Shown piece after piece: positions 14,596-23,743 of a DNA stretch of 38,573 bases; position 1 is the stretch's first letter, and each line of letters begins with the position of its first letter. This DNA comes from Candidatus Aenigmatarchaeota archaeon (lineage in GTDB: Archaea; Aenigmatarchaeota; Aenigmatarchaeia; JACPZZ01), in contig JACPZZ010000027.1 of assembly GCA_016195275.1 (NCBI GenBank), positions 1 to 38,573 of the forward strand, read 5' to 3'. The notes beneath the pieces were generated by a model. The model saw only the letters and a program-made list of their open reading frames with translations, had not been told where the DNA came from and ran no database searches. The translations under genes were made by a program, and so were the position numbers.

Positions 14596-17500
14596 ATGAC
14601 TTACATACAACGCCTCGTTATGCAGGGCTTCAAGAGCTTTAACAAAAAAATAGCCATACCTTTCTCCCAGACGTTCAGCGTCGTATGCGGCCCGAACGGA
14701 TCGGGGAAATGCCTCCACCCACACTCTAAAGTCGTTTTGGCTAACGGTAAGCTAGTGGAAATAGGCCCGTTCGTGGAAGAAGAGTTGGAAAAGTCCGCCT
14801 ATGTAAAGAAGCTGGATGATGGGTTTATTTGCCCCAACTATAGTGGAATCGAAGTTTTTACCATAAGATCCGACATGAAGTTGGAAAAGACCAGGCCGTC
14901 CGCCTTCATAAAAAGAAAATCTCCCAGAAAATTATTGAGAATAAAAACCCAAAGCGGTAGAGAAGTTGTTGCGACAAAATACCATCCGTTGTTTACTTTC
15001 TCGAATGGTAGGATGAACAGCCTCAAAGCGGAAGAACTGAAAGTGGGCCTAAAGATAGCGACCCCTAGGGTATTGGACACAAAACCGAACAACAATCTCG
15101 ATTTGTCGAGTTTCACCGAAAGTGATGAGGTTCGGGCGTCAATAACACCGGAACTCGACGAAGAGGTTAGATGGATAATTCATTCCTCCGGCCTCACCCA
15201 CGCGGAGTTCGGCGAAAGGTATGGAGTACCATACAATTCAATAAAAGGGTTTTTGGAAGGCCAACCTATGAAAATGGGTGAGATGGCAAGAACCTTGGCC
15301 GCAGGCTGCTCTGAGACGCCTGTTCGCGCAACATATTCTCATCAGAGGTTAATGAAAATACCCACTGTAATCAGCGAAGGAATATCCAGGTTCTTGGGTT
15401 ACATAATATCCGAGGGCAGTTCCACCTCTGCAAATCATGTTCGGTTCGTCAATGAGGACAATGGGATGGCCATAGATTTCTGCGATATATCGAAAATGGA
15501 ATTCGGGTTGGATGCAAACGTTTTCAATTATAAACCTCACGCTAAGGATGTAATTGTGTTTTCAAAACCGCTCCAAGTCTATCTTGAAAAAGTATTCCAA
15601 TTTAAACGCGGTTCCAAATCCGCGGAAAAGGTTGTTCCGTCAGCGGTCATGACAGCCGAAAACGGAATAGTGGCGAGTTTCCTTGGAGGATTGTTCGACG
15701 GCGATGGATATCTGCATGCATGTAAAATGAAAAATAAAAACCACGTTTATTTCGAATACGCGACTGCGAGCAAAGAGCTAGCGAAAGGAGTTCAAACGCT
15801 GCTTCTCAGATTGGGGATAATCTCTACGATAAAAGAAAAACTGAAAAAAGCCACCAATTCCGAAATGCAGAAAAAAAGATATTATTCGTTGTATGTGTAC
15901 GGTGGAATGACCAAAAAATTAGTCGAAAAAATAGCTTTCAGAAACAAGAAAAAAATCGAAACAAGCCGCAAGATCATGAATTTGAATTTGCCCACAAACC
16001 CCAATATGGATTTGATACCCGGTTTGAACGGGGTAGTAAAAGAATTCCTTAAGTCGGCTGGGATCAGCATAAAAAAGATAAGGAAAGAGTACCCGAAAGT
16101 CGCTGCGTATTACGAGAACAGGTGCGAATGCAGTGCGGGAGGCCTACAAGAAGTGCTGGAAGTTGTGAAAAAATATGGAAATCCGGATTATGACAAGATT
16201 CTCGGCGACGTACTACAGCAAGCATCGTCTTCTGACATATTTTGGGACAAGATAATTGAATTGGAGGAGATGGATTCCGATACAGAATGGGTATATGATC
16301 TTTCTGTGGAGGGAACACATAATTTTGTAGCCGAAAATATAGTTGTTCACAACAGCAACATCAACGACGCCATCTGTTTCGTTCTAGGCCGCACCTCGGC
16401 CAAGTCGATGCGCGCAGAGCGTTTGCACGAACTAATATTCCATGGCGGAAAGGGCAAAGAACCTGCGGAAATAGCATCTGTTACACTATATTTGGATAAT
16501 TCGAAAAAGGAATTTCCCTTCGAGCAGGACTTTATCACCGTGACGAGAAAAGTTAACAAAAACGGGGCGACCGTTTACAAGCTCAACGATGAAACGGTGA
16601 CGCGCCAGCAGGTTTTGGACACATTGGCCGCAGCCAGAATCTTCCCGGACGGCTACAACATCGTTCTTCAGGGGGATGTAACGCAAATCATAGAGATGGA
16701 CCCGCTTGAAAGGCGCGCCGTTATCGATGAAATAGCCGGCATAAAGGAGTACGATGAAAAGAAGGCGAAATCTGAAAAGGAGTTTGAAAAGGTTGAGCAG
16801 AAATTAAAAGAGGTCGGCGTTGTTCTGAAAGAGCGCGACGAAACATACAAAAAACTGCAGGAAGAGCGCGACGCTGCGCTGAAATACCAGAGTATGACAA
16901 ACGAACTGAAAAAGCTGCGCGCATCCATTGCAAACAAAAGATTAACGCAATCGGAGCAATCGTTCTCATCGTTAACAAGCGAGGTTGAGGCAAAGGAAAA
17001 AGCTGCCGAGGAGATGAGCGCGAAGCTCACAGAACTGGACACAGACATAGATAAAAAGGAGCAGGAACTTGAGCTTTTAATGAAAACTCTCTTCGAACGT
17101 TCCAAAAAAATCAAGATCGTGCGTGATGTCGAAGAACTTCGTGCAAAAATCCTGCGGATCAATGATAAGATTGAATACGACAAACGCGAACTTTCGCGTT
17201 TAGACATGATAATATCCCGCCTTGAAGGCATAAGCGGAGATCAGGAATCGCGTTCTGTTACCGAAGTGCTGAAACTGGGCAAGCCGGGCGTTTATGGAAC
17301 AATCGCTTCTTTATTGCGCGTCCAACCCCAATACCAGACAGCCATTGAGGTTGCCGCAGGCCCGCATATCAACGACCTTATTGTTGATAACGAAGCCACG
17401 GCCATCGAGTGCGTTAATTTTCTTAAGAACAACAAAATCGGCCGCGCAACATTCCTGCCGCTGAATAAAATACAGGATCGCCTGACTTCGTTGTCGCACT

Positions 17501-18723
17501 CTGACACGGCCAAAGCGGTGGGCTGGGCAAACGATCTTATCGAATACGACCGTAAGTATGAGATTGCTTTCAAATTCGTTTTCGGCAGCACGCTGGTCGT
17601 CAAGGACATAGAAACCTCGCGCTCAATCGGGATAGGCAAAACGCGCATGGTCACGCTCGACGGCGATTTAGTTGAAAGGTCAGGCGCGATCATCGGCGGT
17701 TTTTACCGCAAAAAACAGAAGGCCATGTTTGACACAAAGGACATCGAAGAATACAAGTCTACTATGGAGGCTTTGCGTACAGAAATCGAAACGCTTACAA
17801 AGCAGTCAAAGGAATTGGGCAAGGATCTGGAAGCGAAAACGGAACTGGAACGTTCAGAGGCGTCGGATTTCGTGGAAAGCGAGAAAAAAAGAAATTCTTT
17901 GCAGCGCGAATCCGAGGCTTTAAAGCGCCAGAGAAAAACCGTTTTCCAGGAGCGTGTCAACCTTCAATCCGAATTGAACAAGATCAAGCTGCAGCGCGCC
18001 CGCATAGAAGTAGAGCGCGACAACACAAAATCCGAATTTTCGCAGTACGCAACCGAAAAGGAGTTTTATGACCTGCCGTTGGAGGAGATGGAATCCAAGG
18101 TGCGTTTGTTTGTGCGTGAGATAGATTCGTTGGGACCTGTCAATATGAAGGCGATAGACGAGTTTGAAAACTTCCGTGACGAGTTTGAGCAGCTTAGAAC
18201 GCGCTATGAAGAGGTCATAAAGGAGCGCGATTCGATCATGGCAATGATCGAACAGATAGAATCAAGGAAAAAAGACACTTTCACCAAGACATTCGAAGCC
18301 ATCGCTGCCAATTTCAAGCTTATTTTCAAGGAGATGGCCCACGGGGACGGGGAAATATCACTGGAAGAAAACGACAACATTTACTCCGGTTTGGTAATAC
18401 GCGCATCGCCGCACGGGAAAAAATTATTGAGCATTGATTCGATGTCCGGTGGGGAGAAAACGCTGACAGCAATGGCGTTTTTGTTCGCTATACAAAATTA
18501 CAAGCCCGCGCCTTTTTACATATTCGATGAGATCGACGCAGCGCTGGATAAGGCCAATTCGAAGAAAATAGGAGAAATGATGCAGCGTTTTTCCAAAAAC
18601 GCGCAGTTTATCCTGATAACGCACAACGACACAACGATACGGATGGCCGACCAGGTTTACGGCGTTTCGATGGACCAGGGAGAATCCAAGATAATCTCGG
18701 TCAGCCTTCCGCCGGAGGAATAA
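14596..18723 (+). CDS. smc: Chromosome partition protein SMC, with intein in the P-loop and short arms
   Basis: Condensin ATPase of 1375 codons, of which 548 belong to an intein inserted after GPNGSGK. The spliced product would have 827 residues. N-terminal head: QGFKSFNKK, P-loop GPNGSGK-SN, Q-loop NIVLQGDVTQI. The hinge lies around codons 896-1030 (PGVYGTIASLLRV, VDNEATAIECVNFL, GAIIGGFY). C-terminal head: MSGGEKTLTAMAFLFAI signature, YIFDEIDAALD Walker B, ILITHN. Each coiled-coil arm is only about 180-220 residues, against roughly 330 in the SMCs I know (total about 1170-1190). Both arms are shortened by a similar amount, so this looks like a real short-armed form and not a one-sided deletion. 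scpA follows 49 bases downstream. Confidence 0.94.
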   Translation: MTYIQRLVMQGFKSFNKKIAIPFSQTFSVVCGPNGSGKCLHPHSKVVLANGKLVEIGPFVEEELEKSAYVKKLDDGFICPNYSGIEVFTIRSDMKLEKTRPSAFIKRKSPRKLLRIKTQSGREVVATKYHPLFTFSNGRMNSLKAEELKVGLKIATPRVLDTKPNNNLDLSSFTESDEVRASITPELDEEVRWIIHSSGLTHAEFGERYGVPYNSIKGFLEGQPMKMGEMARTLAAGCSETPVRATYSHQRLMKIPTVISEGISRFLGYIISEGSSTSANHVRFVNEDNGMAIDFCDISKMEFGLDANVFNYKPHAKDVIVFSKPLQVYLEKVFQFKRGSKSAEKVVPSAVMTAENGIVASFLGGLFDGDGYLHACKMKNKNHVYFEYATASKELAKGVQTLLLRLGIISTIKEKLKKATNSEMQKKRYYSLYVYGGMTKKLVEKIAFRNKKKIETSRKIMNLNLPTNPNMDLIPGLNGVVKEFLKSAGISIKKIRKEYPKVAAYYENRCECSAGGLQEVLEVVKKYGNPDYDKILGDVLQQASSSDIFWDKIIELEEMDSDTEWVYDLSVEGTHNFVAENIVVHNSNINDAICFVLGRTSAKSMRAERLHELIFHGGKGKEPAEIASVTLYLDNSKKEFPFEQDFITVTRKVNKNGATVYKLNDETVTRQQVLDTLAAARIFPDGYNIVLQGDVTQIIEMDPLERRAVIDEIAGIKEYDEKKAKSEKEFEKVEQKLKEVGVVLKERDETYKKLQEERDAALKYQSMTNELKKLRASIANKRLTQSEQSFSSLTSEVEAKEKAAEEMSAKLTELDTDIDKKEQELELLMKTLFERSKKIKIVRDVEELRAKILRINDKIEYDKRELSRLDMIISRLEGISGDQESRSVTEVLKLGKPGVYGTIASLLRVQPQYQTAIEVAAGPHINDLIVDNEATAIECVNFLKNNKIGRATFLPLNKIQDRLTSLSHSDTAKAVGWANDLIEYDRKYEIAFKFVFGSTLVVKDIETSRSIGIGKTRMVTLDGDLVERSGAIIGGFYRKKQKAMFDTKDIEEYKSTMEALRTEIETLTKQSKELGKDLEAKTELERSEASDFVESEKKRNSLQRESEALKRQRKTVFQERVNLQSELNKIKLQRARIEVERDNTKSEFSQYATEKEFYDLPLEEMESKVRLFVREIDSLGPVNMKAIDEFENFRDEFEQLRTRYEEVIKERDSIMAMIEQIESRKKDTFTKTFEAIAANFKLIFKEMAHGDGEISLEENDNIYSGLVIRASPHGKKLLSIDSMSGGEKTLTAMAFLFAIQNYKPAPFYIFDEIDAALDKANSKKIGEMMQRFSKNAQFILITHNDTTIRMADQVYGVSMDQGESKIISVSLPPEE
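14710..16353 (+). mobile_element. Intein with LAGLIDADG homing endonuclease, in the SMC Walker A motif
   Basis: A 548-residue insertion that starts with Cys (CLHPHSKVVLANGKL, block A) exactly after GPNGSGK and ends VHN before Ser-Asn of the SMC P-loop (block G: His-Asn, then Ser as the downstream nucleophile). Block B is ATKYHPLFT with the TxxH pattern at about intein residue 89-92. Block F is YDLSVEGTHNFVAENIV. Two LAGLIDADG-type motifs, FLGYIISEG (codon ~266) and FLGGLFDGDG (codon ~362), are 96 residues apart, so the DOD endonuclease appears complete. A GERYGVPYNSIKGFLEG segment may be a helix-turn-helix. Splicing is needed to rebuild the ATP-binding loop. Confidence 0.93.
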
Positions 18724-18772: not shown

Positions 18773-19480
18773 ATGGAAATGCAAACTGAAGAAAAGATTT
18801 TGAACCTGGTTGTCCGCGACCATTCGTGGGAGCAGATAATTTTTCATCTTATCGAATCTGAAAATCTTGATCCGAATGACGTGGATCTGGAAAGACTTGC
18901 CAACGCTTTCGTTGACTACATTAACAAGCTGGAAGAGCTGGATTTCCACATACCCGCAAAAATGATAATCATCGCAGCCGTCCTGTTGCGGATGAAATCG
19001 GACAAGCTTGGATTTGAAAAGGAGCTGGTCATGCCGGAAGTTGCGGAAAAACCCGCGCCGATAGACAAAATAGATACGCTGCCGTTAAATGTGCCATTGA
19101 AACGGCAACCGAAAAGAAAAGTTTCTGTTCAGGAACTTATCGAAGCATTGCGACGTATGGTGGAAACAAAGGAAAAGAAAGAACGCAGATTTTTGCGAAT
19201 GCAGGAAAGGATAGAAATAACCGAGGACGACATAACCGAGAAGATCGACAAGCTGTATTCCAAGATCGCTTGGGTTCTGGACCGGTTGTACGGGGAACCG
19301 CTGCCGTTCACAAAACTGGTCGGGGAATGGAAGCGAAAGAACGTGGTCAGAAACTTCGTGCCGTTGCTTCAGCTTGCGCACCAGGGCAAACTGGACATAG
19401 AGCAGGAAGACTGGTTCAAGGAAATACTGATTAGCAGGCGAACTAAGAGATTTGATGATACGGACGAGGAAACCTCTTAA
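18773..19480 (+). CDS. scpA: Segregation and condensation protein A
   Basis: The kleisin subunit that bridges SMC heads. It has 235 residues. The N-terminal WEQIIFHLIESENLDPNDVDLE helix-turn region and the helical IPAKMIIIAAVLLRMKSDKL segment bind the SMC neck; a charged linker (KRQPKRKVSVQELIEAL) follows; the C-terminal winged-helix end closes with FVPLLQLAHQGKLDIEQEDW and FKEILISRR. It is co-directional with smc at short distance. The last 25 codons and a stretch past the stop are repeated, in diverged form, at 21284-21383. No scpB is seen in the window. Confidence 0.92.
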   Translation: MEMQTEEKILNLVVRDHSWEQIIFHLIESENLDPNDVDLERLANAFVDYINKLEELDFHIPAKMIIIAAVLLRMKSDKLGFEKELVMPEVAEKPAPIDKIDTLPLNVPLKRQPKRKVSVQELIEALRRMVETKEKKERRFLRMQERIEITEDDITEKIDKLYSKIAWVLDRLYGEPLPFTKLVGEWKRKNVVRNFVPLLQLAHQGKLDIEQEDWFKEILISRRTKRFDDTDEETS

Positions 19481-19504
19481 AACAGGGGTTAGGGTTTTGA
19501 AAAA
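19406..19504 (+). repeat. scpA tail, copy 1 (in the intact gene)
   Basis: The end of scpA, encoding ED-W-FKEILISRR and an acidic tail, plus a 13-base flank GGGTTTTGAAAAA at 19492-19504. The same arrangement recurs at 21284-21383. Confidence 0.85.
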
Positions 19505-19558
19505 CTATAAAACATTTGTGGCAAACATTTATAAGTCAGACCAGAAGAGATAAATAAT

Positions 19559-19753
19559 ATGACAAACGAAACCATGATTTTGAAGAAATTGGAAGATATG
19601 GAAAAGGACATCAAAGAGATAAAAAGGAAAATGGTTGACAAGGATAGCGTTATGACAGAAGATGATTATTCAGCGTTACTGGAGTACAGGAAAGAAAAGG
19701 GAAGCGGAAAGCTTTTTCCCCATGAACATGTCAAAAAAGAGCTAGGTTTATGA
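19559..19753 (+). CDS. Small antitoxin of a RelE-type pair
   Basis: A 64-residue charged protein starting MTNETMILKKLEDMEKDIKEIKRKM, a coiled-coil-like helix, with a C-terminal FPHEHVKKELGL. The ending (helix closing in K-x-E/L-G-L) is common in archaeal RelB-like antitoxins. Its stop overlaps the toxin start by four bases (ATGA), so the pair is translationally coupled. Confidence 0.7.
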   Translation: MTNETMILKKLEDMEKDIKEIKRKMVDKDSVMTEDDYSALLEYRKEKGSGKLFPHEHVKKELGL

Positions 19754-20010
19754 TTTTTGTAGCGGAGTATTCCAACCAAGCTTTGAAATTATTGAAGCAG
19801 GCTGACAAAATTTTAGCAAAGAGGGTGATCGCTAAAGTGGAGTTGTTGCTCAAAGAGCCGGTTGGACATGATGCAAAAATAATGGAAGGTTACAAGGAAA
19901 AACTGTATCGCGTAAGAGTAGGGGATTACAGGATTCTGTACGAGGTGGACTACGGGAATAAAAAGATCGGCGTTGTTAAAATTGATCATAGATCTAAGGT
20001 TTATCGATGA
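19750..20010 (+). CDS. relE: RelE/ParE-family toxin
   Basis: An 86-residue protein with the family pattern: an N-terminal MIFVAEYSNQALKLLKQADK helix pair, the KIMEGYKEKLYRVRVGDYRILYEV strand core with the Arg residues that contact RNA in RelE toxins, and a C-terminal VVKIDHRSKVYR. It is complete and normal in length. RelE toxins cut mRNA in the ribosome A site. It is coupled to the antitoxin gene just upstream and is one of several toxin genes between the scpA tail copies. Confidence 0.88.
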   Translation: MIFVAEYSNQALKLLKQADKILAKRVIAKVELLLKEPVGHDAKIMEGYKEKLYRVRVGDYRILYEVDYGNKKIGVVKIDHRSKVYR

Positions 20011-20089
20011 CGATTGGTTTCATTTTCGATGTTTTCTGGCCTAAAACATAATAAGGTATAGCCCAAACTTGCCGCGATGGTGAAATGAA

Positions 20090-20323
20090 ATGAAAAAATC
20101 CAAAACGATTGAGGAAGAAGAAAACAGCTTATGGTCGGCTGGGGAATTTGCCGAGACCATGAGTTCGTCCGACATGGAAGAAAAGATGAAAACATTCCAT
20201 AAGAAGCATGACGAGAATGTGGATTTCAATTGCAAAAAATGCAACGCAAAAATATCCGCTCACAACAAAGATTGGCATGGCGGGATGTGCGACGATTGCT
20301 TCAACAAGGAAAATACATTGTAG
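20090..20323 (+). CDS. Small zinc-ribbon-like protein
   Basis: A 77-residue protein. The N-terminal half is charged and helical (EEEENSLWSAGEFAETMSS). The C-terminal half carries CKKCNAKIS and CDDCFNKE, two CxxC pairs 20 residues apart around an HNKDWHGGMC loop, a likely zinc knuckle. I know no specific family. It follows the RelE toxin on the same strand and has an ATG shortly after GGTGAAATGA. Function unknown; nucleic acid binding is a guess. Confidence 0.6.
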   Translation: MKKSKTIEEEENSLWSAGEFAETMSSSDMEEKMKTFHKKHDENVDFNCKKCNAKISAHNKDWHGGMCDDCFNKENTL

Positions 20324-20362
20324 GCATCTGGCTACTTGAGTAGAGTCGGCTTATTACTGGTG

Positions 20363-20602
20363 ATGAAAACCAAAAAATACGACAGGGAGTTAAGGCATGA
20401 ATTCATCAAAAAGTTGAATAAGCTCAGGAGGAACGCAAGATATTACGTTTTCTCATGTGCTACAAAGAGGGGCAAATGCGAAAAATCAGGACAAAAAATA
20501 TTCGTATGTTTTGATTGTCACGTGAATAATTGCAAGCAATGGTATAGGTTCGGCCATAAGGACGGCTTTAGCAGGGCGAAAAATAAATTCTACAAAGCAT
20601 AA
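20363..20602 (+). CDS. Small basic Cys-containing protein, unknown
   Basis: From the ATG at 20363 (an upstream TTG at 20336 is also in frame) it encodes 79 residues: MKTKKYDRELRHEFIKKLNK, then VFSCATKRGKCEKSGQKIFVCFDCHVNNCKQWYRFGH. Five or six Cys with CFDCHVNNC suggest a metal site. It is strongly basic. I do not recognise it. It lies between the zinc-ribbon gene and the convergent PIN toxin inside the toxin-antitoxin island, and may be cargo of that island. Confidence 0.5.
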   Translation: MKTKKYDRELRHEFIKKLNKLRRNARYYVFSCATKRGKCEKSGQKIFVCFDCHVNNCKQWYRFGHKDGFSRAKNKFYKA

Positions 20603-20605
20603 AAC

Positions 20606-21016
20606 TCACAACAATTTGAGCACGTCTCTGGTTTTCAGGATCTTTATTCTGTTCTGCTTTTCAAAGTCCTTATCTTCTGACCAGATCATACAATTATCAA
20701 TAGTCAATGCCGCCGCCAGGAACACCACATCATCCGGGTCTACGCGGGCAAATTCCATTTCAGCATCCTTTAATTTTGGTCTAATCTGTTCATCCGTAAT
20801 CAGCGTTACATATTTCAACAGCCGATTGAATAATTCATCATACTCAACTTCGCTTATTCCGGATTTATCAAGGATCAGCGCCTTATAATTTCTTATCTCG
20901 TGCAAGGACGTTTCCGGGTAATAGAATTTACAATCAGACTCAATTATGATTTTTCTGGTCGTGGAATTCCTGATTAAGGCGGAAATAAGAACGTTGGTGT
21001 CTACGACGATGTTCAT
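20606..21016 (-). CDS. vapC: PIN-domain toxin (PIN_3 / putative VapC)
   Basis: A 136-residue PIN ribonuclease starting MNIVVDTNVLISALI at the ATG at 21016, which overlaps the antitoxin stop as ATGA. The longer frame beginning upstream is only the antitoxin region in another phase. The acidic set is visible: D6 in VVDTNV, E in SLHEIRNY, DPDD in RVDPDDVVFLAAAL and D in SEDKDF. The RxDPDD...SEDKDF form is the group of PIN proteins often annotated as putative toxin of the PIN_3 type. Confidence 0.87.
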   Translation of the reverse strand: MNIVVDTNVLISALIRNSTTRKIIIESDCKFYYPETSLHEIRNYKALILDKSGISEVEYDELFNRLLKYVTLITDEQIRPKLKDAEMEFARVDPDDVVFLAAALTIDNCMIWSEDKDFEKQNRIKILKTRDVLKLL

Positions 21017-21237
21017 TTCAGACCCAATTTTCTGGCAACATTGCTGTTTACTTTCTTGGTAATCTCGTCCGCATCCTTTTGCGTGAGCCTGCTTTTTGCC
21101 GCTATCCTGTCCATGGTTTCCAAGTCTTCCATCTTCTGCGATATGGCTTTCCTTGCAACCTCGCTCCATCTTATCTCGGAGTGCTTCTTCATTTTCTCAT
21201 GCAACTCTTCCGGAACTGCCAGAGTGATGTTAGGCAT
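21013..21237 (-). CDS. vapB: Ribbon-helix-helix antitoxin paired with the PIN toxin
   Basis: A 74-residue protein: strand MPNITLAVPEELHEKMKKH, helix IRWSEVARKAISQKME and a charged tail ending VNSNVARKLGLK. This is the standard RHH (Arc/CopG-like) VapB of archaea, with a RWSEVAR DNA/dimer helix. It overlaps the toxin by four bases. A palindrome next to its TATA box is the likely autoregulatory operator. Confidence 0.85.
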   Translation of the reverse strand: MPNITLAVPEELHEKMKKHSEIRWSEVARKAISQKMEDLETMDRIAAKSRLTQKDADEITKKVNSNVARKLGLK

Positions 21238-21256
21238 GTTATCACCTATGTGAATA

Positions 21257-21276
21257 ATGTGATTTCACATATATAA
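21257..21276 (-). promoter_or_regulatory. Promoter and operator of the vapBC pair
   Basis: Palindrome ATGTGATTTCACAT (21257-21270; arms ATGTGA/TCACAT) abuts a TATA box read on the minus strand (CTTATATAT, 21268-21276). Another TGTGA half-site lies closer to the start (about 21249-21253). This is the layout expected of repression by the RHH antitoxin. Confidence 0.6.
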
Positions 21277-21283
21277 GCTTTGC

Positions 21284-21383
21284 GAAGACATGTTCAAGGA
21301 AATTCTAATTTCTAGGCGAGTGAAGAGATTAAACGAATCAGACGAAAATAACGACGAAAACTGATGTTTTGGGTTTTGAAAAA
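21284..21383 (+). repeat. scpA tail, copy 2 (displaced 3' end)
   Basis: In the same strand as scpA the DNA encodes ED-M-FKEILISRR, then VKRLNESDE and a stop at 21362-21364, against FKEILISRRTKRFDD in the real ScpA. The differences are partly synonymous, as between diverged homologs. The 13-base flank GGGTTTTGAAAAA is again present, at 21371-21383. No start precedes it, so it is an orphan 3' end. Confidence 0.8.
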
Positions 21384-21401
21384 ATAAACCATCGAAGCGG
21401 C

Positions 21402-21628
21402 TTATTTCTTCAGCAGCTTGAACAGCGCTTCTCTTGTTAATCCCGCCTGCTTGAGAATGGAATTTAATGTACCTATTGCAAGTTCTGGGTGATTCGGCAC
21501 GTTATTCGCATATACGGGTATACGACTCTTCTCAAGATCATATGACTACCGGTCATGTGGTCAATTTCAAAACCAACCTTAATAAGAACTTTTACAAGCT
21601 CCCTGCCTGCGATTATCGGGAGTCTCAT
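21402..21628 (-). pseudogene. hicA: HicA toxin with a one-base frameshift
   Basis: The frame starts at ATG 21628, overlapping the hicB stop as ATGA, and reads MRLPIIAGRELVKVLIKVGF...HMTGSHMILRR, the normal HicA double-stranded RNA-binding-like fold with the GSH catalytic His. Near 21515-21527 the frame must shift by one base to continue RIPVYANNVPNHPELAIG, then SILKQAGLTREALFKLLKK and TAA at 21402-21404. Without the shift the protein goes off family after codon ~35. So the toxin is broken, or the shift is a sequence error. Confidence 0.78.
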
Positions 21629-21837
21629 ACGCTTATCTCGGATATTTGTAAAACATCCTTTACAGGTATCTCTTCATTGTGTTTCTTGAGACTTTTCAAA
21701 TAACCGTTTATTGCGTCTCTGATATTTTTCATCGCCTCTGCTTCTGTTTTACCTTGAGAAATGCAGCCCGGCAAATTCACACATTCCACTACATAAAATC
21801 CGCTCTCATCCTTGGATACAATTATCTTGAATTTCAT
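21625..21837 (-). CDS. hicB: HicB antitoxin
   Basis: A 70-residue intact HicB: MKFKIIVSKDESGFYVVECV, the LPGCISQGKTEAEAMKNIRDAI core and a short C-terminal tail, without a separate DNA-binding domain. HicB binds and inhibits HicA. It overlaps the frameshifted hicA by four bases and precedes it, an order seen in part of the family. Confidence 0.9.
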   Translation of the reverse strand: MKFKIIVSKDESGFYVVECVNLPGCISQGKTEAEAMKNIRDAINGYLKSLKKHNEEIPVKDVLQISEISV

Positions 21838-21873
21838 ATTTTTATTTGATGCCTCCTTTTCATAGCCAAGAAT

Positions 21874-21993
21874 GTGAAAAAGCAGCCTGAACTAAGCAAG
21901 GAAGCTGTAAACGCCATTGAGAAAGCGAGGGAAAGGATAAGAAAAGGCAACTTTTTAACAGAAGCGGAAGCGAAAAAGAAACTGGGCCTTTAG
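21874..21993 (+). pseudogene. RelB-like antitoxin fragment
   Basis: A short plus-strand frame, from a GTG near 21874, reads VKKQPELSKEAVNAIEKAR and ends NFLTEAEAKKKLGL with a TAG at 21991-21993. The ELSKEAVxAIEKARERI...KKxLGL pattern is that of small archaeal RelB antitoxins. It may lack part of its N-terminus, since the frame is stopped just upstream. It is followed by a truncated relE. Confidence 0.55.
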
Positions 21994-22015
21994 CAAATCA
22001 TTTTGAAGTGGTTTG

Positions 22016-22147
22016 ATGTACGATGTCGTTTTTGATCCACTTGCAATAGATTTTTTGAACAGCCTTGAAAAAGAAGTCAAAGAATCAAAACGGGGAGGAA
22101 TAACCCTACCTGCGATAGACATTGTCGTGGTGGTCGAAATCTTCTAA
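22016..22147 (+). pseudogene. relE: RelE toxin, N-terminal fragment
   Basis: From ATG 22016: MYDVVFDPLAIDFLNSLEKE, the first strand and helix of a RelE toxin, then VKES followed by unrelated residues to a TAA at 22147. The Arg-rich core is missing. It converges with the next, complete relE, and its end overlaps that gene's end, as if a rearrangement replaced the rest. Confidence 0.6.
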
Positions 22148-22372
22148 AACAACCGTCTTATTTTGTTCGTCTATGGAATAAACCAGCACGAAATTCCTGT
22201 CGATATGAACCCTCCTAAGACCTTTCATAATATTGCTTAGGGGCTTGAACCTGTACGGGTCTTCCAAAATTTCTTCCAGCTTATTTGAAATCATTTCAAG
22301 TTGTGTGGGGTTCTTTTTGGCCAGCTTCTTGAATATTTGATCCAATTTTGGCCTTCTGCTTACAAGGTACAT
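22106..22372 (-). CDS. relE: RelE/YoeB-family toxin
   Basis: An 88-residue toxin of the RelE superfamily: LDQIFKKLAKKNPTQLEMISNKL, then KPLSNIMKGLRRVHIDRNFVLVYSID with the RNA-contact basic residues, and the ending EDFDHHDNVYRR typical of Txe/YoeB-like archaeal forms. It is complete and lies one base after the stop of the antitoxin gene. Confidence 0.85.
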   Translation of the reverse strand: MYLVSRRPKLDQIFKKLAKKNPTQLEMISNKLEEILEDPYRFKPLSNIMKGLRRVHIDRNFVLVYSIDEQNKTVVLEDFDHHDNVYRR

Positions 22373-22373
22373 T

Positions 22374-22616
22374 CTATCCTAACCCGTACGTTCTGCGGAA
22401 ATCTTTTATGTTCCCAGCCGGTAAGGCTTTCTGTTTTTGGATTTTTCTCAATTTTTTGATGTATTCGGGTTTTACATCCTCATCCATGGAAAATTCCTCG
22501 AATTTTTCAACGACCTTGTCTATGGCTTGGGATTTGTCCTTCAGCCCGTATTCCGCCTTTACTATGTTCAGAACCCTATTGGTTTTTTCCCTTATGTCAA
22601 CAATCGCTTTTACCAT
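22374..22616 (-). CDS. DUF2683-like antitoxin
   Basis: An 80-residue protein starting MVKAIVDIREKTNRVLNIVK, then AEYGLKDKSQAIDKVV: a beta strand with two helices as in RHH regulators and matching the archaeal DUF2683 pattern I know. The basic C-terminus ends RRTYGLG. It is directly upstream of relE and has a 26-bp near-perfect palindrome two bases before its ATG. Confidence 0.75.
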   Translation of the reverse strand: MVKAIVDIREKTNRVLNIVKAEYGLKDKSQAIDKVVEKFEEFSMDEDVKPEYIKKLRKIQKQKALPAGNIKDFRRTYGLG

Positions 22617-22617
22617 G

Positions 22618-22643
22618 TTAATATCACATTAATATGATATTAA
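22618..22643 (-). promoter_or_regulatory. 26-bp palindromic operator at the start of the DUF2683-relE pair
   Basis: Arms TTAATATCA and TGATATTAA are exact inverse complements, and the 8-base centre CATTAATA is itself a palindrome but for one pair. The element lies directly before the antitoxin ATG (22616) and covers its likely promoter. Autorepression by the antitoxin is the simplest reading. Confidence 0.65.
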
Positions 22644-22714
22644 TTCTTATTTATAAGCATATTCGCATCGATCTGCCGTCTTTAGCTACGAGTATTTAGT
22701 TAGAGTTCTAAAAA

Positions 22715-22771
22715 TTTTTCAAGGAGATGCTGATAAAAAAGAAAACTCAAAATTCGCAGGACGAAGATTAA
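22715..22771 (+). repeat. Possible scpA tail, copy 3
   Basis: Plus-strand DNA encodes FKEMLIKKK followed by a short polar, acidic tail and TAA at 22769-22771, resembling the ScpA end FKEILISRR plus acidic tail. A stop lies two codons before the start of this similarity, so nothing else of scpA remains. Similarity is shorter and weaker than for copy 2, and the 13-base flank is absent. Confidence 0.4.
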
Positions 22772-23743
22772 TCATCCTTTGCAGAAATCCGTCGGCGGCG
22801 CGCCGTCGCCGGTCTTGCTCACGAAAAGGCTGTAATAAAATTCTTTTTTGCCGCCTGTAAAGTAATCGTAAGGGCAAACGGCCCTGGTATCCATTTCCTC
22901 ATAACCAGCCTTCCCGGCCAGATGGTTTGATTTGACTTTGCTGTAAACTCCGAAATCCCAGTTTTTAGCGGCCGGCGTACCTGTTGTATATCCGATCAGG
23001 TCGCCGGCCTTGAATTGCGTTGCAGGCAGGTAATCTGTTCTGGTGTCTTCAATTTTCGGCGGGTTCGGAAACATGTCCCCGATGAGTTTTATGGGCTCCT
23101 CCAAATGGTCAAATTTAATCTCAATCTCGCAGCTAACATCAAAAAAGAAAAGGTAATTCAATTCGCCCCCTTCCATGTATTTTGTGCCCGCGACAAGTTT
23201 CGCACCAACCGGCACATAAACAGGGACTTTTTTATTGTCTTTGATCCATACGTGCGAATGCGTTTTTTCGTTTCTCGGGGGCGTGACAGCTTTGATCTTG
23301 TTTGTGTCTGTCACGTCAGCAGTGAAAATAGGATTCGTATTTGAAACGCAATCGGGTTTTGTTTGCGTCCCGCCCGCTTTTCTGGGAGCCAGTGTGTCAA
23401 GCTTTCGTTTCAGTTCCGTTAATTCTGAGTCTTGAATGAAACCTGTTAATGAAAAAAGGTCTGCGTTCATTTTCTGATAACGCTCATCACTTACACCCTA
23501 TTCAGGATTCTGCTGGTACAGGGCTTCTACCTCGCGCTTTAGCGAATTGTAAAGGCTTTGTTTTTCATTTTTCACGCTGCCCGGAACGTACGTGGTTGTA
23601 GTCTGTGCAGTTTGGTCCGCCGCACTTCTATTTTGGCCGTCGCCCGAATCTGGCACATTCGCCCCCTGGCTGCCATAATTGTTCTGCACGCATCCGCTGA
23701 CACGCAGAACGGCAGCCAGCAAAAGAATCGGATCGGATTTCAT
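22772..23743 (-). pseudogene. Lipoprotein gene interrupted by an in-frame TAG
   Basis: Two frames, 23498-23743 and 22772-23470, are in the same phase and separated by one TAG (23498-23500) and nine sense codons. The first part starts MKSDPILLLAAVLRVSGCVQ, a signal peptide with lipobox VSGC, then a Thr/Gln linker and a coiled helix (SLYNSLKREVEALYQQNPE). The helix continues across the TAG. The second part has HVWIKDNKKVPVYVPVGAKL and NYLFFFDVSCEIEIKFDHLEEP with NWDFGVY, a beta-rich fold reminiscent of M23-like or other surface modules, not firmly recognised. TAG ends normal genes here, so this is a nonsense mutation, sequencing error or readthrough. If only the second part is made it has no export signal. 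Confidence 0.65.

Follow-up and report, generated by a model that had tools for sequence, protein, structure and literature searches.

What leaves several partial copies of the 3′ end of a condensin gene lined up behind that gene, with different small genes packed between them? The question is raised by a contig of 38,573 nucleotides (JACPZZ010000027.1, read along its forward strand and here termed the window) from a Candidatus Aenigmatarchaeota genome (assembly GCA_016195275.1, here G000; 1.07 Mb in 34 contigs), whose nearest named relatives are groundwater metagenome-assembled genomes (MAGs) of the same phylum. The window carries an intact scpA gene, encoding a segregation and condensation protein, followed on the same strand by two displaced copies of its end. 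Comparison with related genomes shows, at the level of sequence, insertion at this gene end, exchange of gene ends between species, specificity for scpA and a constant boundary. We consider it probable (roughly 0.6) that in Aenigmatarchaeota small non-autonomous gene cassettes dock site-specifically at the scpA 3′ end, with a recombinase acting in trans.

The locus was compared at two levels. Within the genus, four species had a readable scpA 3′ region: G000, G002, G003 and G004. The last three are not geographically independent, as several MAGs came from similar groundwater samples; the other families examined are separate lineages. Across the class, stretches downstream of scpA were taken from around 80 genomes, and 84 scpA loci were scanned for displaced tails, using each gene’s own tail as query and counting a match if it lay on the same strand and then reached a stop codon. 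As a control for other genes, 969 open reading frames (ORFs) of at least 150 amino acids in 89 stretches were tested identically to scpA. Tail sequences in the genus fall into four types (t0–t3), and three of these occur in the window:

18773..19480, + strand: scpA, intact, carrying tail t1 from 19415 to the stop; Pfam SMC_ScpA and Rad21_Rec8; 84–88% amino acid identity to three congeners
19415..19480, + strand: working tail t1, beginning at the core TTCAAGGAAATACTGAT; 2/60 nucleotide differences from the displaced tail of G004
19481..19520, + strand: post-stop flank with GGGTTTTGAAAAACTATAA, common to the displaced t1 of G003 and partly to t2
21284..21364, + strand: displaced scpA tail t2, core at 21293, with E-D-M upstream of FKEILISRR kept; 1/60 nucleotide difference from the working tail of G004
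21365..21386, + strand: flank of t2 with GGGTTTTGAAAAA
22718..22771, + strand: displaced scpA tail t3, likely the oldest, its type bordering the same lipoprotein gene in G003 and G002 too

The 235-residue ScpA protein matches Pfam SMC_ScpA (2e-12) and ends in EDW-FKEILISRRTKRFDDTDEETS before the stop. As Pfam places residues 182–225 in Rad21_Rec8, the C-terminal conserved region of kleisins, FKEILI is read as closing that domain, and the ~14 residues that follow as a variable tail. Both downstream copies reported by the initial annotation are real. The one at 21284–21383 shows 71% DNA identity to the scpA end, is its sole other match in the whole genome (E-value 6e-7), translates as FKEILISRRVKRLNESDENNDEN before its stop and retains the post-stop flank GGGTTTTGAAAAA. 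The weaker copy, placed by the annotation at 22715–22771 and delimited here as 22718–22771, contains the core and translates as FKEMLIKKKTQNSQDED before its stop; its identity is confirmed by orthology, since a similar fragment stands directly before the same lipoprotein gene in G003 (FKEIMIKKKVENREN..., L033:13614) and in G002 (L192, ~207–265). With this neighbour in all three species, t3 probably represents the ancestral tail. The window has exactly three occurrences of the 17-base core TTCAAGGARATNCTRAT, every one on the scpA strand, in keeping with the annotation’s claim of a common orientation; the expected number was 0.00 (100 dinucleotide shuffles, none with the core). Rfam gave no match in the scpA region of the window, which holds neither an RNA family nor a tRNA.

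The four species carry different combinations of tails: t1 is the working tail and t2 and t3 are displaced in G000; G004 has working t2 and displaced t1; G003 has working t0 and displaced t1 and t3; and G002 has working t0 with a displaced t3 on another contig. The scpA bodies show 77.8–79.5% identity in every pair. The t1 tails of G000 (working) and G004 (displaced) differ at 2/60 positions and their t2 tails (displaced and working, respectively) at 1/60; t1 and t2 inside one genome differ at 18–19/60. Along the G000/G004 alignment, identity per 30-nucleotide bin is 20–25/30 (67–83%) up to the core and 29–30/30 (97–100%) from the first base of the core, the step falling exactly at TTCAAGGA. 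A third pair, the t0 tails of G003 and G002, shows a step from 67–80% to 87–90% at the same place. Tails near-identical across species, together with the jump in identity at the core, therefore indicate that species have exchanged the end of scpA now in use, with the core as the switch point. The boundary is constant: in all detected displaced tails, scpA homology starts 0–16 nucleotides before the TTC of FKEI, despite right-hand neighbours that are mostly different. An assembly chimera at the 17-base core is unlikely because the tails differ in sequence and their flanks are locally consistent.

Beyond the genus, displaced tails were found at 8 of the 84 scpA loci of the class (score ratio 0.79–1.00; reverse-strand maximum 0.62), distributed over four families: f1 (three loci), f19 (G052, G058 and G089), f8 (G076) and f26 (G109). 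Among the 969 control ORFs—a generous denominator, since many are spurious frames—this score was reached by eight, all of them scpA (Fisher ~2e-9); the next best were two chance-like matches just below, at 0.78 and 0.76. Chance similarity of the window’s tails was rejected on the genome match E-value, the shuffles, the class-wide scan and this control. Extra pairs of the core at G076:C1 and G068:C38 were also discarded as occupied sites, as they do not lie at scpA. A possible second, degenerate displaced tail (TTCAAGGAAATATTCATATG) was noticed between two small ORFs in G089 (L146:994–1045).

The apparently fresh insertion is that in G109, where the last 46 bases of scpA, up to the stop codon, recur perfectly and define a unit of 1156 bp. 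The insert consists only of a TA-like (toxin–antitoxin-like) pair, a 138-amino-acid ORF with a nucleotidyltransferase (PF18765, PF01909), arranged as in HEPN-MNT pairs; the ORF, which has no Pfam match, may by its position be the HEPN-like partner. In G110, of the same family, the site is empty, with scpB 9 bp after scpA. Genus g29 likewise contains an empty site, in G040 (scpB 26 bp after scpA), and occupied ones: G081 has a 310-bp insert, G058 has two toxin–antitoxin (TA) pairs separated by a displaced tail, and the content of G052 is different again. In G058 and G081, the sequence leading up to scpB is similar to the native scpA–scpB junction of G040. Overall, scpB lies within 60 bp after scpA in 35 of the 57 loci where it was found. 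Intervals of about 0.1–0.8 kb at some 15 other loci hold mostly ordinary small genes and no recognisable displaced tail, and were not counted.

These comparisons largely uphold the central proposal of the initial annotation, namely repeated insertion at the scpA 3′ end with a replacement tail supplied each time: shared tails, the identity step at the core, empty and occupied sites, the 46-bp repeat of G109 and the specificity for scpA among 969 ORFs all agree with it. The comparison it had suggested, of related genomes for empty sites and islands of varied content, found empty scpA–scpB junctions in other families and different arrays in four species; no site was empty among the readable species of the window’s own genus. 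There, the direct junction of scpA with the lipoprotein region that it had named as supporting evidence was not seen, all four readable species being occupied.

The array differs in every species of the genus, as follows (cargo in parentheses):

G000: scpA-t1-(ParE pair, two small ORFs, PIN pair)-t2-(HicBA, pair X remnant, RelBE pair)-t3-lipoprotein
G004: scpA-t2-(X)-t1-(NHL-repeat protein, RuBisCO-like)-lipoprotein
G003: scpA-t0-(MscS, inositol phosphatase, MscS, glycosyltransferase)-t1-(Fic)-t3-lipoprotein
G002: scpA-t0-(X)-t3-lipoprotein, inferred across a contig break

The right end of TA pair X is joined through the same few bases, at TTTCAAGG, to t1 in G004 and to t3 in G002, from which pair X reads as one cassette with two targets and one junction. 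The glycosyltransferase of the G003 array was not found in the other four genomes of the genus. A RuBisCO large-chain family gene stands beside the array in two species, on opposite sides of the lipoprotein gene (L033:14708–16006 and L035:11719–13020); its changed side suggests a local rearrangement.

Between and beside its tails, the window contains:

19559..19753, + strand: small ORF, by position the probable antitoxin of the next toxin; no Pfam match
19750..20010, + strand: ParE/RelE-type toxin (PF05016, E 5e-11)
20090..20323, + strand: 77-amino-acid ORF with CxxC, cargo; no Pfam annotation
20363..20602, + strand: 79-amino-acid ORF, cargo; no Pfam annotation
20606..21016, − strand: PIN-domain (VapC-type) toxin (PF10130, E 1.7e-29), start codon inferred from the ORF
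21013..21237, − strand: probable VapB-type antitoxin, by position
21390..21628, − strand: HicA-like toxin with interrupted frame (ORF 21473–21628, then frame lost), assignment inferred from its position beside HicB
21625..21837, − strand: HicB-type antitoxin (PF15919, E 1.9e-9)
21857..22084, + strand: what is left of TA pair X, a truncated antitoxin and the start of the toxin, with 90–91% DNA identity to the intact pair beside t2 in G004
22106..22372, − strand: RelE/ParE-type toxin (PF05016, E 2.6e-8), 74% amino acid identity to the toxin beside a displaced scpA tail in G058, of another family
22374..22616, − strand: cognate antitoxin (DUF2683 below cut-off), 56% identity to the G058 antitoxin
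22772..23743, − strand: lipoprotein gene, the right flank of the array and not a member of it; frame broken in the window

The two RelBE pairs, of the window and of G058, share 71% DNA identity over 505 nucleotides; the ScpA proteins of these genomes are only ~41% identical. The initial annotation’s description of the intervals as holding TA genes fits the window itself, with its ParE/RelE, PIN/VapC, HicB and DUF2683 types, and is too narrow for the class. The cargo types identified there were ParE/RelE, PIN, HicB, Fic and nucleotidyltransferase, alongside cargo of other kinds: small membrane ORFs (G052, G076), an ATP-cone ORF (G089) and the 4.2-kb block of G003. As to the genes flanking the region, the counterpart of the frame-broken lipoprotein gene is intact in L033 and L192, and the smc gene directly upstream of scpA (14596–18723) seems to be interrupted by an intein within its Walker A motif (GPNGSGK | C...HN | S).

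Under the docking-site reading, each cassette (0.4–4 kb) would at some stage be a circle with the core and a substitute scpA tail at its junction; a recombinase acting in trans would then join this circle to the core inside the last scpA codons. ScpA would retain its C-terminal strand because the cassette’s tail re-encodes it, and the tail beyond that strand would be free to vary. The sequences themselves show older tails left downstream, their orientation unchanged and the cargo from one tail to the next varying; repeated rounds would build an array running from scpA through the newest tail, cargo, an older tail, further cargo and the ancestral tail to the native neighbour. Recombination between the working and a displaced tail may release a cassette again, a loss that TA cargo would penalise. 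A more specific version, which we hold only tentatively, is a dedicated Aenigmatarchaeota cassette system, in which the scpA end would be the docking site and the cassette-borne end copies the recombination sites. A housekeeping kleisin gene would then be the base of an integron-like platform, served by a recombinase not yet recognised as such.

Several observations weigh against the docking-site reading. All genomes compared are metagenome assemblies. No recombinase was present among the cargo ORFs of any cassette seen, and the occupied genomes have no recombinase in common: four of eight, namely G003, G004, G076 and G109, show neither tyrosine nor serine recombinases (PF00589 and PF00239), although all four are incomplete MAGs (completeness 79–91%). 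Supply in trans from another element is conceivable, as a candidate only. A search of viral contigs with two exact patterns and one degenerate pattern gave no matches; no free circle or virus carrying scpA tails was found, and no obvious inverted-repeat arms were seen at the core. Pair X, moreover, lies behind t0 in G002 but behind t2 in G004, which shows that a given cargo is not strictly tied to one tail. In G003 it sits elsewhere without any scpA tail (L193, G003:C3:53665–54210), flanked by a Rieske gene and a pilin-like gene, which are direct neighbours in the window (26051/26092), and so can apparently also move without one. Both the mosaic of X with t0 or t2 and the tail-less X of G003 are unexplained by the simplest cassette model.

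Among the other occupied genomes, G000, G002 and G089 have members of both families, whereas G052 and G058 have PF00589 only. The integrase and serine recombinase of G000 are not close to scpA; they are found on contig C24, in the vicinity of purD and of a bacterial-looking stretch. Within G000:C24 ~46,000–78,000 (L126, L170), a large serine recombinase and a tyrosine recombinase next to purD are accompanied by bacterial-looking genes; on G002:C20 both recombinase types lie ~19 kb apart, and the two stretches are possibly a related integrated element. G089 has 13 tyrosine-recombinase matches in a 1.2-Mb genome, several of them broken, and is a mobile-element-rich archaeon.

The main rival, which we judge somewhat unlikely, is homologous or short-homology recombination with DNA from relatives, in which core and tail would simply be the best local homology and imported fragments, or excised circles of tail plus cargo, would be incorporated without a dedicated enzyme. 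The want of a common recombinase and the mosaic behaviour of pair X both suit it, as do the near-identical tails, from which it follows that DNA is exchanged between species. Yet bodies of ~79% identity offer other recombinable stretches and the three exchanges examined switch exactly at the core; different new cargoes in several families share one right boundary; and the effect is limited to scpA among 969 ORFs. Of the two alternatives named by the initial annotation, an integrase and homologous recombination, both are candidates; constant boundaries favour a site-specific process.

A less probable reading takes the inserts as decayed remnants of larger integrated plasmids or viruses, each with its own tyrosine integrase targeting scpA, which have kept only addictive TA genes and, arriving in succession, have left displaced tails as at tRNA genes. 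Archaeal integration into 3′ ends of protein-coding genes is documented (PMC6563490), archaeal att sites are usually 40–50 bp (PMC8371274), which fits the 46-bp repeat of G109, and both pair X and hicA show partial decay in the window. Set against this, the freshest insertion, with its perfect repeats, measures just 1156 bp and lacks an integrase, cassettes of every age seen are likewise free of one, and neither the genus genomes nor the viral contigs yielded an element with both an integrase and an scpA tail. Insertion of a TA pair with a long duplication of its target, no tail being carried in, is very improbable: the perfect repeat of G109 alone fits it, and it could still be the mode in single cases, but it predicts that tails within a genome are nearest relatives, which the differences of 18–19/60 within and 1–2/60 between species contradict for G000/G004, ruling out simple duplication in the window’s genus.

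A recurrent integration hotspot has been identified in a DPANN phylum with little-described mobile elements, and the locus illustrates how new genes could be taken up beside a condensin gene that itself stays intact. The displaced tails form a fossil record whose counts and types order successive insertions and reveal exchange between species. The missing recombinase offers a concrete target for searches because four occupied genomes lack the usual recombinase families.

The initial annotation knew of no element using scpA in this way, and we found none: no open-access paper joined ‘segregation and condensation protein’ with an attachment site and an integrase, or reported scpA as a target. 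The scpA end behaves as an integration hotspot and, in part, as a cassette array; its assignment to either the integrative-element or the integron class stays putative, since a search for the integrase that defines them found none.

Several known systems share features with it. At icd of Escherichia coli, phage 21 and e14 supply a replacement 3′ end of a housekeeping gene, as a full prophage or prophage remnant with its own integrase, unlike the scpA cassettes. Restriction-modification genes can insert with long target duplication; they resemble the scpA units in combining an addictive gene pair with a long direct repeat, whereas the scpA tails are of types shared with other species and not duplicated in place. 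Casposons occupy the 3′ end of an archaeal housekeeping gene, elongation factor 2, with tandem insertion known (PMC6563490). They were ruled out here: the inserts lack Cas1, the 46-bp repeat of G109 is too long for their short target duplication and no terminal inverted repeats were seen by eye at its insert ends. Among the nine occupied genomes, six have no Cas1, and the matches in G000, G004 and G058 all lie off the scpA contig.

Integron cassettes offer a closer parallel. Integrase-less cassette clusters (CALIN) with TA cargo have been reported in archaea, and attC sites in Aenigmatarchaeota (PMC9668308). Like the scpA arrays, they line up small cassettes, often TA pairs, at one site with no local integrase, and mobilisation in trans has been proposed for them. 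An IntI integrase is not required for CALIN; no PF00589 protein was found in the incomplete MAGs G003, G004, G076 and G109. The boundaries are attC hairpins in CALIN and scpA coding sequence here, where each insertion also replaces the gene end.

The archaeal elements of the tyrosine-recombinase type that integrate at gene 3′ ends (PMC6563490) share further features with the scpA locus, and 14 of 68 thaumarchaeal integrative elements lie in the 3′ ends of protein-coding genes (PMC6563490). In both, the gene is kept whole by element sequence that includes a new stop, a remnant is displaced, tandem insertion is possible and relatives have empty sites; of the marks by which that type is recognised, scpA has the displaced 3′ fragment or direct repeat with a reconstituted gene, the empty site in close relatives and the short constant core, and lacks an integrase among the cargo ORFs. 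What distinguishes the scpA units is their size of 0.4–4 kb without an integrase, the replacement of the last conserved strand together with the tail, and the exchange of these tails between species.

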